Source of the DNA: a virus | Reading direction: 5' to 3' (one strand) | Virus record (IMG/VR): IMGVR_UViG_3300049491_000955 | Coordinates: 1 to 64,000 of that record | Length of the DNA stretch: 64,000 nt | Part shown: positions 9,369 through 56,399 of the stretch, piece after piece | Numbering within the stretch: the stretch's first letter is position 1 | How the letters are laid out: every line of letters begins with the position of its first letter | Made by a program: the position numbers and the translations under genes | The notes under the pieces: generated by a model | The model's input: only the letters and a program-made list of their open reading frames with translations | Told to the model about the DNA's origin: nothing | The model's database searches: none

Positions 9369-10697
9369 ATGGTTTCAACTAAACTTTTAAGTCCCAAGGT
9401 TCAAGCCCTTGTCAGTACTTGGCTAGGTTCTGTACCTATCCCTGACAAAAATCCTATTCAACTTTATTTGGATATGGTCACGGCTCATCCGGTTGCTTCC
9501 GCTGCTAATGATTTAAGAATTCTTCTTGGCATCTCTATGATGAGAGAATTTTCTCATTCAGATGAAAAGATTCAAGCAGAAGTCAGAAAGTCTATCTCAA
9601 ATATGTCCGGCTCTTGGCGCAATACAGTCGCAGGCATGATGACTTATCTCGCTTTTGGAAGATCTTTTAGCGAAGTTGCTCACGATATTATTAAAAAGCA
9701 AGCCACTCTTAAGATTATTCAAACCGTCGATCCTAGATATTATTATTTTGAAGGCAGCTTAGGCGAAATTACTCAGGTTCATTACTTAGGTATGACTGAT
9801 ATTTATATTCCCTATGAAAACGGCATCCATCTGATAAATAAACCCTACTTAGCACTTGGCGGCGATCCTTACGGTATTGCAATCTGCAAAGCAGCTTACC
9901 CCTTTGTTGAATTATCACGGCTAATAATGGCAAGCGTAACCGTCGCTGGAGAACGACAAGCCACTAAGCTGTTAGTCGGTCAAACTGATACTTCTAATAA
10001 TGATGTTGTAATGCCTGACCCCGAAACAGGACAGGCTATTCTTGACCCCCTAACAGGAGAAGAAAAATTATTTAATCAAGGGTATGTTCTCGCCAAACAG
10101 TTAGAGCAAGTTCAGAACAACTCTTACCTGGTAACAGACATCGCTAATCAGATTACTGCGATCGCCCACGAAACAGACGGCTCTTTCTTTATCAATATAT
10201 TGTCGTTTTTGGAAAGCATGATTCTACTCTCCTGGTTAATTCCCCGCACCGTTACCGGAACCGGATCAAGTTCTAGTGGGGATAGCAATCTAAATGAAGG
10301 ACACAGGGAAACCTTGCGCTTAGTTAACAGATCTGAAATGGAAATGATTAGCGAAGCCTTGATTGAACAAGCCATCAAACCAATGCTTATTTTCAATCAT
10401 GGTGAGATGGAAGATTACGGAACTTTCCCCGTAGCTCAAGAAGACTCAGCAGATACTGTTCAACTCTTGGCTGTACTTACCGCAGCAGTTGAACGGGGAA
10501 GCTTTAGCGCGTCTGATCTGAAAGTCATCAACAGAATGCGCGAGTTAGCTGGCATTGAACAGATAGAACCTTCTGAATTTGTCCCTCCAGAACTAAAAAA
10601 CCAACCGCAGATATCTAAAAACAATAACGAAAACTTGGACAGCAATGGTCTAGACGAACAAGGCAAGCCAGGTTCTAAAAGTTTTTTTTTAAAGTAA
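9369..10697 (+). CDS. Portal protein (Mu gp29 / DUF935-like)
   Basis: A 442-residue protein with the features of DUF935-type portals: an N-terminal 'HPVASAANDLRILLGISMMREF' helix, a central 'GRSFSEVAHDI' region, 'VDPRYYYF', 'YGIAICKAAYPFVELSR', and 'LIPRTVTGTGSSSSGDSN', then 'LIEQAIKPMLIFNHG'. The portal forms the ring at the packaging vertex. Its last codons run over nine T residues and then a -1 slippery heptamer T TTA AAG directly before the stop; reading on in the -1 frame enters the MuF-like gene, which has no start codon of its own at its conserved N-terminus. There is no clear ribosome site at the ATG. Terminase lies unusually downstream, beyond an antirepressor and Dam. Confidence 0.8.
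   Translation: MVSTKLLSPKVQALVSTWLGSVPIPDKNPIQLYLDMVTAHPVASAANDLRILLGISMMREFSHSDEKIQAEVRKSISNMSGSWRNTVAGMMTYLAFGRSFSEVAHDIIKKQATLKIIQTVDPRYYYFEGSLGEITQVHYLGMTDIYIPYENGIHLINKPYLALGGDPYGIAICKAAYPFVELSRLIMASVTVAGERQATKLLVGQTDTSNNDVVMPDPETGQAILDPLTGEEKLFNQGYVLAKQLEQVQNNSYLVTDIANQITAIAHETDGSFFINILSFLESMILLSWLIPRTVTGTGSSSSGDSNLNEGHRETLRLVNRSEMEMISEALIEQAIKPMLIFNHGEMEDYGTFPVAQEDSADTVQLLAVLTAAVERGSFSASDLKVINRMRELAGIEQIEPSEFVPPELKNQPQISKNNNENLDSNGLDEQGKPGSKSFFLK
10682..10694 (+). promoter_or_regulatory. Putative -1 frameshift site joining portal to MuF
   Basis: Nine T residues followed by AAAG. In the portal frame the codons are TTT TTT TTA AAG TAA, so T_TTA_AAG is a textbook X_XXY_YYZ heptamer two codons before the stop. 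The T9 run could equally allow polymerase slippage, or be a homopolymer sequencing error. Confidence 0.6.
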
Positions 10698-11335
10698 AAG
10701 ACGTATCCACAGCATTCAACTGGAATAAATCCAGCCAACGTTACCACTACGCTAACGGCGCAAGCAAAGGACAATTTGTTGGAGACAAAAAAGTTAAGGA
10801 ATTAGTCGTTGCCGCGATCGCCCAACAAGCTGACTTAGGCAAAACGCTAACCAATCGAATGCTAAAAAAAGAAATTTCCGTTGCTGACTGGGAGTCTGGT
10901 ACAGCCCAAATATTAAGAAATCTATCTGTCTATCAATATGCTGTTGGAGTTGGCGGCGCAAAACAAATGGATTGGAAAGACCAATCACTAATTTCTGGAC
11001 AGCTTAACTTTCAACTTCAAAAGCTACGCGGCTTTTCCAACGAAATCTTGCGCGGCGAACTTACTGAAAAACAGATCCGAGCCAGAATTCAACTTTATTA
11101 CAACAAGACTCGTGGACTTTATGAGCTTGGCCGCCAACAAGGACATCGACGCAATGGTTACTTGTGGGAACGTCGTGTACTTAGCAATGTAGAAAATTGC
11201 GCTGAGTGCATCACTTACGCTAATACTGGCTGGGTTACTATTGGAACTCTTCCCAATATAGGCGATCGCTGTTCCTGCAAAGCTAACTGCAAATGTAGCT
11301 TTTATTACTCAAATAGTTTAAACAGACCTAAGTAA
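10694..11335 (+). CDS. MuF-like minor head protein, probably made as a portal fusion
   Basis: The frame opens just after the slippery site and encodes about 213 residues. The N-terminus 'RYHYANGASKGQFVG' is the pattern at the start of many minor head proteins, and the C-terminus carries 'NCAECI', 'GW.TIGTLPNIGDRCSC' and 'CKCSF', the cysteine-rich ending of the Mu gpF/SPP1 gp7 family. No ATG, GTG or TTG occurs in frame before an ATG at 10859, which would remove the conserved first 55 residues. Expression as a portal-MuF fusion by -1 frameshift is therefore the simplest reading; a shorter product from 10859 is the alternative. MuF proteins sit inside the head next to the portal and help assembly or ejection. 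Confidence 0.75.
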   Translation, partial: VKDVSTAFNWNKSSQRYHYANGASKGQFVGDKKVKELVVAAIAQQADLGKTLTNRMLKKEISVADWESGTAQILRNLSVYQYAVGVGGAKQMDWKDQSLISGQLNFQLQKLRGFSNEILRGELTEKQIRARIQLYYNKTRGLYELGRQQGHRRNGYLWERRVLSNVENCAECITYANTGWVTIGTLPNIGDRCSCKANCKCSFYYSNSLNRPK

Positions 11336-11620: not shown

Positions 11621-12520
11621 ATGTTAACACAAGGCTATATTTTTAGTGCGTTTCAGGCTGAAAGCGCTGGTAATCAGTTTCCTTTGAGCTTTGATGAAGC
11701 TTGGGAAAAAGCAGGATATGCGAGAAAAGATAACGCTAAAAAAGTTCTAGTTATTGAGCTTGTTGAGAATGAAGACTACACGATTTTAACAGATTCCGCA
11801 CTTTTAAGGGATCTGACAACCACAGGGTTCTTTGAAAGTTTTTCAAGCGTTCCAGCTTATTTGTCAAAAAATCAAATTTTAGCGCTTATTGAGAATGAAA
11901 CTTTTCTAGATCTACTTTCTCCTCAAGAAAAAGCTGTTATTGCTAGGACAGAAATAATCAAGCTTTCTACTGATGGTTTTGATCATTTTTGCATGATGGC
12001 TCGGACGGAGAAGGGTCGGGAAACTAGAAAGCAATTTATTGCTTTCAAAAAACAATATATTGCTAATCTTGATCGTTCGTTGCTTTTGGAAGCCGATCCA
12101 AGGCTTGCAGAGTCTGAACAACTAATAGCCAAGCTCAATCAGCAAATCCAACAACTAGAATCCCAACTTACCAAAGCAACCTCCAACCACCTAGAGTTCA
12201 CCTACTCTGTTGCTCATCTTCACAGTGTCTCCGGCATATCCAACAAATCTCAAGTCAAAAAGGCAGTTATCAGCGAGTTTGAAGAAGGAAAGCACTACGT
12301 TTTTGTGGACAAAGAAGTTTTCGTAAATCAATCGACATTTGATATTTTGGTCATGTCCTTTAGATCCATTAAAGGAACTGACCTCAGTCGCTTGCCTGAA
12401 TTCATTCGCATTAATACCAAAGAATACTTTTTGTATCAAGAAAAGAAGCGGAAGAACAGTCGATTAGGACAGCGAAAATATCAAGCTCCAGAAGGACAGC
12501 AAAGTTTGTTTGAAATGTAA
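11621..12520 (+). CDS. AntA/AntB-type phage antirepressor-like protein
   Basis: A 299-residue protein. Residues about 5-50 look like a small DNA-binding or antirepressor domain ('FDEAWEKAGYARKDNAKK'), and about 105-150 contain 'LSTDGFDHFCMMARTEKG' followed by a helix, the core pattern of AntA/AntB antirepressors. A glutamine/leucine heptad stretch (about 170-190) gives a coiled coil, and the C-terminus 'SNKSQVKKAVISEFEEGKHY' looks like a second winged-helix-like module. Such proteins bind or displace phage repressors. It sits between head genes and is followed at once by a terminator, so it is its own unit. Target unknown. Confidence 0.65.
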   Translation: MLTQGYIFSAFQAESAGNQFPLSFDEAWEKAGYARKDNAKKVLVIELVENEDYTILTDSALLRDLTTTGFFESFSSVPAYLSKNQILALIENETFLDLLSPQEKAVIARTEIIKLSTDGFDHFCMMARTEKGRETRKQFIAFKKQYIANLDRSLLLEADPRLAESEQLIAKLNQQIQQLESQLTKATSNHLEFTYSVAHLHSVSGISNKSQVKKAVISEFEEGKHYVFVDKEVFVNQSTFDILVMSFRSIKGTDLSRLPEFIRINTKEYFLYQEKKRKNSRLGQRKYQAPEGQQSLFEM

Positions 12521-18353: not shown

Positions 18354-18899
18354 CTAACAACCGACTTGAACGCCAGAAGTCAGTCGATTATTTTGGCGCA
18401 TCCGCTTCTCCCAACCTGAACTTCCATATTTGAATCGCGCGATCGTCGCTCTAGCTTCATCTAGTTTGAGGCTAGTAACGTTTAAATCGCCTACTAGCTG
18501 GACATTCTCTTGCTCTAAATGTTGTATATAAGCGCTTGCACTAGCCAGAGTTGCTTTATCGGTTTTTGCAAAAGCGTAACCCTGGCTTTTCAGCTTTGGG
18601 AGCAAATCGCGTTTTAACCAACGTTTAAATTTTTGTGCTGACTCTGACTTTGAAGCAAGAATTAATCCCCATACACCATACTCAGACACAAACCAAACTG
18701 GACTTTTTAGTCCAATGTCAACCAAAGCTCTCTCATCCTCTTCTGTATTGGCAGGAATCGTCAAAGAAGGATTAGAAAATTCTAAAACCTTACAAAGGTG
18801 AGAGCCTTGATGCCAGGTCAGTCCTTGTTCATCAACAAAAGATTTTATTTTTGTTTCTGAAAACTGACTCAATACAATTTCTATTTCATTTGAAGTCAT
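18354..18899 (-). CDS. BRO-N domain protein (antirepressor-like), copy 1
   Basis: 181 residues. Residues about 15-115 match the Bro-N domain: 'FVDEQGLTWHQGSHLCKVLEFSNPS', 'VWFVSEYGVWGLILASKSESAQKFKRWLKRDLLPKLK.QGY'. A coiled-coil segment (about 125-160) follows. The last 15 residues, starting 'MRQNNRLTSG', are identical to those of the next BRO gene, and the DNA there is identical over 39 bp. BRO proteins bind DNA and act as phage antirepressors or regulators. A double palindromic operator lies directly upstream, suggesting autoregulation. Confidence 0.85.
   Translation of the reverse strand: MTSNEIEIVLSQFSETKIKSFVDEQGLTWHQGSHLCKVLEFSNPSLTIPANTEEDERALVDIGLKSPVWFVSEYGVWGLILASKSESAQKFKRWLKRDLLPKLKSQGYAFAKTDKATLASASAYIQHLEQENVQLVGDLNVTSLKLDEARATIARFKYGSSGWEKRMRQNNRLTSGVQVGC
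18364..18402. repeat. 39-bp direct repeat, copy 1 (end of BRO copy 1)
   Basis: Identical to 19012-19050. It starts ACTTGAACGCCAGAAG and ends TTTTGGCGCATC; CGCCAGAA and TTTTGGCG inside form an imperfect inverted repeat. Confidence 0.95.
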
Positions 18900-19001: not shown

Positions 19002-19556
19002 TTAACAGCCAACTTGAACGCCAGAAGTCAGTCGATTATTTTGGCGCATCGTGCGATCGCCCCTATCCTGCGGTTCGTAACGCCGTAATCTGGATCTGAG
19101 TCTGTTGCATTCCAACTGCAATCCATTGAAGTCCGATTCCAAGTACATTTTGTCTTCCACCAGATCCTCGCGTTGCTTGCACAGCCTCACAACTTCTGCC
19201 TGCAACTGTTCAACCGTGGCGTTCGGCATCACGTATACACCACGGCTTCTCAACTTTGGGAGGACTTCCTCTGTCAACCAGTCTTGAAAATCTACCGCTA
19301 TTGGAGCTTTAGAACGCAAAAGCAAACGATAAACGCCAGATTCTGACACATAGTTAGACGGTCTTCCTTTACCTAGCTGAAATTCTCTGTACTGATGCTG
19401 CTTGCAATGTTGCGTTATTGCTTCAAAAGCATTAGAAAATTTCAATACCTTGCAAACTTCTGACGCTCTAAACCAGTACCTCAAATGATCTGGCTCATTT
19501 GGGAGTTCAATAAAAACTATTTTTTTGTTTTCAAACAATTCGGCTAACTGATGCAT
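19002..19556 (-). CDS. BRO-N domain protein (antirepressor-like), copy 2
   Basis: 184 residues with a Bro-N domain at about 12-105: 'FRASEVCKVLKFSNAFEA', 'NYVSESGVYRLLLRSKAPIAVDFQDWLTEEVLPKLRSRG'. A coiled-coil segment (about 115-160) follows, then the same terminal residues as copy 1. Between the shared start motif 'CKVLEFSN/CKVLKFSN' and the shared tail the two proteins are strongly diverged, so the identical tail is not simply recent duplication. Its promoter is consensus-like with an inverted repeat inside the spacer. Likely a second regulator of the same kind with different specificity. Confidence 0.85.
   Translation of the reverse strand: MHQLAELFENKKIVFIELPNEPDHLRYWFRASEVCKVLKFSNAFEAITQHCKQHQYREFQLGKGRPSNYVSESGVYRLLLRSKAPIAVDFQDWLTEEVLPKLRSRGVYVMPNATVEQLQAEVVRLCKQREDLVEDKMYLESDFNGLQLECNRLRSRLRRYEPQDRGDRTMRQNNRLTSGVQVGC
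19012..19050. repeat. 39-bp direct repeat, copy 2 (end of BRO copy 2)
   Basis: Identical to 18364-18402; the flanks (TAACA.CC) are also similar just outside the identical block. Confidence 0.95.
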
Positions 19557-36593: not shown

Positions 36594-36623
36594 ACAGAGG
36601 TAATTAAGAAAGCAAAAAAAAAG

Positions 36624-56153: not shown

Positions 56154-56180
56154 GCAGATTTTAACCGCTGCTATTTTTTT

Positions 56181-56399
56181 TTGAAAAAAACAATTCTTAG
56201 TTGCGATCGCTGTAAGAAAGACATCAGCTTTTTTGATGAGCAGTTTAACGAATTTCTGGCTCAAGAATATCCGGGGTTAGACATCTGCGCTGATTGCGAC
56301 GGGCTTCTAGTTTTGGCGTCATCTTTGCAAACTCATGATTTGATTCGTGGAAACAAGCAGGGAACTGCTCTGAAGAAAATGTTGGAGCAATACAGTTAA
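56181..56399 (+). CDS. Small zinc-ribbon protein
   Basis: 72 residues with two CxxC pairs ('LSCDRCKKD' and 'DICADCDG'), a zinc ribbon, and a short helical end. TTG start after a T-run; no ribosome site. Function unknown. Confidence 0.55.
   Translation: MKKTILSCDRCKKDISFFDEQFNEFLAQEYPGLDICADCDGLLVLASSLQTHDLIRGNKQGTALKKMLEQYS

Follow-up and report, generated by a model that had tools for sequence, protein, structure and literature searches.

How can a phage express a head protein whose reading frame has no usable start codon? The question is raised by the 64-kb stretch of viral DNA analysed here (the window), in which a portal gene runs directly into a frame encoding a MuF-like head protein. 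The portal ORF (9369..10697, + strand) encodes 442 amino acids (48.8 kDa) of the Portal_Mu/DUF935 family; it is assigned to phrog_113 (portal) and matches the PF06074 profile with 69.5 bits (E=4e-19), above the curated cut-off of 23.9. The final codons are AGT TTT TTT TTA AAG TAA, and the zero-frame product ends in ...GSKSFFLK* at the TAA stop (10695..10697, +). The MuF-like frame (10679..11335, +) is open and lies in -1 relative to the portal. Both frames pass through a run of nine T (T9; 10682..10690, +), the candidate slip site, and the portal joined to the -1 frame makes a fusion of 655 amino acids (73.0 kDa). A preliminary description of the locus had placed the T run and the open -1 frame correctly, and was also right that no ATG, GTG or TTG occurs in this frame before 10859.

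The window comes from an IMG/VR virus record of 82,081 bases. Two adjoining ORFs on its - strand (18354-18899 and 19002-19556), labelled antirepressor-like from reading only, have a near-identical 48-nt 3' end (96%), which gives them the common C-terminal tail MRQNNRLTSGVQVGC. The host of the virus is most likely a cyanobacterium, since the cyanobacterial octamer HIP1 (GCGATCGC) is found at 41 sites in the window against 0.24 expected. No prophage was found when 84,980 genomes were searched with MuF or portal patterns.

The second protein was identified by fold and position. The product of the -1 frame is assigned to phrog_24776 (E=4.5e-32), a family of unknown function. No Pfam family matched the window protein, and Phage_Mu_F (PF04233) reached at best E=0.12 among the relatives (2 of 36); sequence profiles from Pfam, NCBIfam and PDB gave nothing significant. 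With hhalign, the probability of a match to Mu gpF was 3%, and the head morphogenesis protein of phage Jayan was not matched. The predicted model (pLDDT 89.9) resembles mostly minor capsid proteins among the BFVD fold matches (the first so named with E=3.9e-4 and probability 1.00), and viral head morphogenesis proteins are also found among these matches. The fold comparison against PDB returned no clear match, only common helical arrangements. The frame lies directly 3' of the portal, the usual place of a MuF gene, and in phages GBK1 and Jayan, which have related portals, the gene following the portal encodes a PF04233 protein. The name MuF given in the preliminary description thus stands on predicted fold and synteny but not on a Pfam match; we regard the protein as MuF-like by modelled fold and by place, and profile comparison does not put it in PF04233. 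For the whole fused ORF of one relative (L099), the predicted structure has a pLDDT of only 41.

A MuF start upstream of the T run is excluded, because a TAA stop (10676..10678, +) lies in the -1 frame directly 5' of the run. Downstream, the near-cognate codons CTG, ATT, ATC and ATA are likewise missing from this frame up to the conserved motif QRYHYA at 10736. The first ATG is at 10859..10861 (+). A start there, named in the preliminary description as the case against a fused product, is judged not to be the true one. It was rejected after comparison with the nearest relative found, contig IMGVR_UViG_3300045954_000073 (L007), which is 60% identical in the portal and 63% in the MuF-like protein. 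The first possible start is at residue 39 of the aligned frame in L007 and at residue 60 in the window; these positions are not homologous, and either start would remove the conserved N-terminal motif. In L007, too, ATG, GTG and TTG are absent 5' of the motif, and only ATT and ATA occur, at different places. A reading with eight T was also rejected: the MuF frame again has no start, and a TAG, read from the sequence, closes that frame past the last ATG.

The junction itself is repeated in L007. Here the portal ends with GGT TTT TTT TTG ACA TAA, that is, nine T at the same codon position, and the -1 frame again opens the MuF-like protein. The join of portal and MuF-like protein by a frame transition, as first described, is therefore seen in a second phage. 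The linker before the T run is unrelated in the two phages (26% amino acid and 42% nucleotide identity), and dS outside the linker is undefined, which we take as saturation. What the two junctions have in common is T9 and, inside it, U_UUU_UUR. The slip signal originally put forward, the heptamer T_TTA_AAG (10688..10694, +), is absent from L007, where T9 is followed by G, and this part of the proposal was dropped. As T9 recurs although the linker is unrelated and dS undefined, we conclude from this comparison that selection maintains the run.

Homopolymers of this length are not special as such. The window contains two T9 runs and one A9 run, and runs of at least nine T occur at about 0.03 per kb. 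The other A9 and T9 runs, at 36614-36622 and 56174-56182, are both outside recognised genes, leaving T9 at 10682-10690 as the sole 9-base A/T run within a recognised gene of the window. By these counts T9 alone is ordinary in AT-rich DNA, and it is the recurrence at the L007 junction that goes beyond chance.

Alignment searches with the MuF-like protein and the portal found 20 contigs carrying both genes, together with L112, which is cut in the MuF-like gene; identity was about 55-60%. In these sister phages (L087-L107, with L112 included) the portal and the MuF-like domain are encoded in a single continuous frame. One-frame fusions, which the preliminary description had suggested looking for in relatives, were found; its heptamer is absent from L007, as described above. 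At the same junction the sister phages carry a dnaX-like cassette. Each of the 16 distinct sequences has exactly one in-frame A_AAA_AAG per ORF, located at the linker, and in all 16 ORFs a -1 stop follows 1-6 codons past it; such an early stop is on its own not unusual in AT-rich DNA. The linker varies by substitution and by insertion or deletion while the letters of A_AAA_AAG are constant, including where the residue is Glu (GAA) in some phages and Gln (CAA) in others. In a sliding synonymous-site test the heptamer codons are invariant, yet the sliding statistic does not set them apart from their surroundings; synonymous conservation at the heptamer is visible but not strong on its own.

Stimulatory elements accompany the heptamer in most sister phages. 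A Shine-Dalgarno (SD) stretch with an anti-SD duplex of -7 to -16 kcal/mol lies upstream at a spacing of about 10-14 nt in 11 of the 12 representatives (L103 being the exception), and its energies are in the top 0.3-4% of positions within the same ORF. As a control, the window and five sister loci were scanned for further in-frame A_AAA_AAG sites; of the five present in these 26,741 codons, none had an SD (energy -0.6 or above) versus five of five at the junction. On the 3' side, most have a hairpin at a distance of 4-7 nt from the heptamer. The L087, L090/L112 and L099/L103/L106 types show a strong one (z about -3 to -5.3), and one pair of the stem has changed on both sides between L087 and L090, from C-G to T-A. 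Hairpins are weaker in L104, L089 and the L092/L093/L102 group, with z near -1.3 to -2.6 in the latter two. The missing SD of L103 and the weak hairpins of L089 and L092/L093/L102 are the weak points of the cassette.

In the E. coli dnaX cassette, the ribosomal shift yields the shorter product (PMC5009743). The sister junctions share with dnaX (tau/gamma) the A_AAA_AAG heptamer, the -1 stop within a few codons and, in nearly all representatives, the upstream SD; a downstream hairpin is clear in some types and weaker in others, and a shift would likewise yield the shorter product. Because the layout is that of this cassette, the analogy predicts that the sister phages would release the portal alone besides portal-MuF. 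The window differs from E. coli dnaX in the gene concerned, in having no stimulators and in its reversed default frame.

For the window we propose, with a probability of roughly 0.63, that one gene gives two forms of the portal through transcriptional slippage at T9. Most mRNAs would carry U9 and be translated to the 442-residue portal. Addition of one U within T9 by the RNA polymerase would give a U10 message, and ordinary translation of it would yield the 655-residue portal with the MuF-like domain at its C-terminus. Transcripts with U8 would meet an immediate stop (..SFF*) and give a plain portal as well. The products computed for both T9 phages agree with this scheme: with U9 or U8 the portal terminates immediately, and with U10 the frame runs on into the MuF fusion. 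The portal of SPP1 (gp6) holds few copies of gp7 inside the procapsid (PMC6316719), and by this analogy we infer that portal and portal-MuF are both produced and assemble together into one ring, with the MuF-like domain turned towards the inside of the head. A mixed ring would thus bring a limited number of MuF-like domains into or near the head. SPP1 is alike in that few MuF copies are held by the portal, and differs in that gp6 and gp7 come from separate genes and bind non-covalently.

The main rival has the same biological outcome by other machinery, namely a -1 shift of the ribosome at U_UUU_UUA (10685..10691, +) or at U_UUA_AAG. Both are X_XXY_YYZ heptamers in the portal frame, the first is kept as U_UUU_UUG in L007, and the sister phages carry a cassette of the ribosomal type at the same place. 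U_UUU_UUR inside T9 could serve the ribosome, and FFF could partly be kept for the sake of the protein. Also to be set against slippage is that only two T9 members are known versus 16 distinct A_AAA_AAG sequences. We nevertheless consider a ribosomal shift in the window the less likely route. The second heptamer is not conserved, U_UUU_UUA is far less prone to shifting than A_AAA_AAG in E. coli (PMC5009743), and no convincing SD or well-placed hairpin was found at the junction of the window or of L007. At this point the coding strand of both phages is long enough in T for a slippage site, which takes nine or more A or T, and slippage on runs of nine A or T is known from bacteria (PMC5009743). 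If the frame transition is real, slippage is preferred with fair assurance on three grounds: the run is of a length that slips in bacteria, T9 is conserved, and an SD or well-placed hairpin is lacking. The computed junction peptides of the two routes differ by one residue, ..SFFLKVKD.. after a ribosomal shift and ..SFFFKVKD.. after slippage.

The MuF-like protein might instead be translated by itself, either at a start that is not recognisable or through termination-reinitiation close to the portal stop, in the manner of phages with two separate genes: it has its own start in more than 70 distant relatives and the portal stop adjoins its expected N-terminus. We find this improbable: none of the seven start and near-cognate codons precedes the conserved motif in the window, and those in L007 lie elsewhere; the sister phages have a one-frame fusion; and T9 would be left unexplained. 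Phase variation at the DNA level, where genomes switch between portal-only and a fused T10 state, would exploit the ready mutation of homopolymers, one additional T being the fused state. It is a very improbable reading, as T9 stands in both consensus sequences and the translational type of cassette in the sister phages cannot be a DNA switch. Least credible is a sequence error or a decayed MuF gene. Homopolymers are error-prone, and a true T10 would give a simple fusion as in the sister phages, which was the reservation expressed at the outset; but the same T9 and frame recur in L007 at 60-63% identity, so that an assembly or sequencing error in both appears very unlikely, and the maintained MuF sequence speaks against decay.

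In the portal tree (unrooted), the T9 pair is split from the A_AAA_AAG phages by one branch with full support. The more than 70 distant relatives have other portals and a separate MuF gene, and in GBK1 and Jayan the portal and PF04233 genes are separate also; the fused or shift-joined state hence looks specific to this portal group. Window and L007 on the one hand and the sister phages on the other seem, judging from their junctions, both to be built for portal plus portal-MuF, with opposite default frames. We see about an even chance that a cyanophage family builds a mixed ring of plain and MuF-bearing portal subunits whose proportions are determined by recoding, and that evolution has swapped the recoding device along with its direction (T9 slippage to the long form, a dnaX-like shift to the short form) while preserving the two-product outcome. 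Two further arrangements were observed. In the Cylindrospermopsis phages Cr-LKS4 and CrV-01T (L002 3789-4001), a gene of 70 amino acids lies between the portal and the MuF-like gene and overlaps both. In the Porphyromonas phage BK068095.1 (H33), a Mu gpF match at 11999-12391 falls inside the gene annotated as portal, possibly a further portal-MuF fusion.

Extension of structural proteins by a frameshift is familiar from phages, where it is known for tail chaperones, capsids and tail tubes (PMC5009743, PMC6316719). Lambda gpG/gpGT, the capsids of A2, T3 and PSA, and SPP1 gp17.1* are alike in having a set ratio between a structural protein and its C-terminally extended form. No frameshift-extended portal was found among the known phage structural cases, and the literature searched (published open-access papers) contained no description of recoding where portal and MuF are joined. 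One-frame portal-MuF fusions are present in Microbacterium phages EA3, EA5, EA8 and EB (PMC7302621), where a MuF-like domain is likewise carried on the portal; these are plain fusions with no frameshift described. Across bacteria, dnaX itself uses slippage in some species and ribosomal shifting in others (PMC5009743). The window resembles Thermus thermophilus dnaX in having nine identical bases near the junction, with homologues elsewhere that shift ribosomally; the run is of A and the long product lies in one ORF in Thermus, whereas in the window the run is T9 and the short product lies in one ORF. Slippage on A9 in this gene was reportedly described by Larsen et al. in 2000.

The usual description of a portal is a ring of twelve identical subunits, and to our knowledge it is not well understood how phages keep MuF at few copies per head. 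If portal and portal-MuF are indeed made in a ratio fixed by the genome, this would answer the question for one family, and the ratio would be directly testable by mutation of the slip site. That relatives seem to keep the two-product design with a different slip signal suggests that the mixture matters to the virus. A homologous junction with two recoding devices would be the phage counterpart of the dnaX case and, if true, strong evolutionary evidence that selection acts on the ratio and not on the mechanism.
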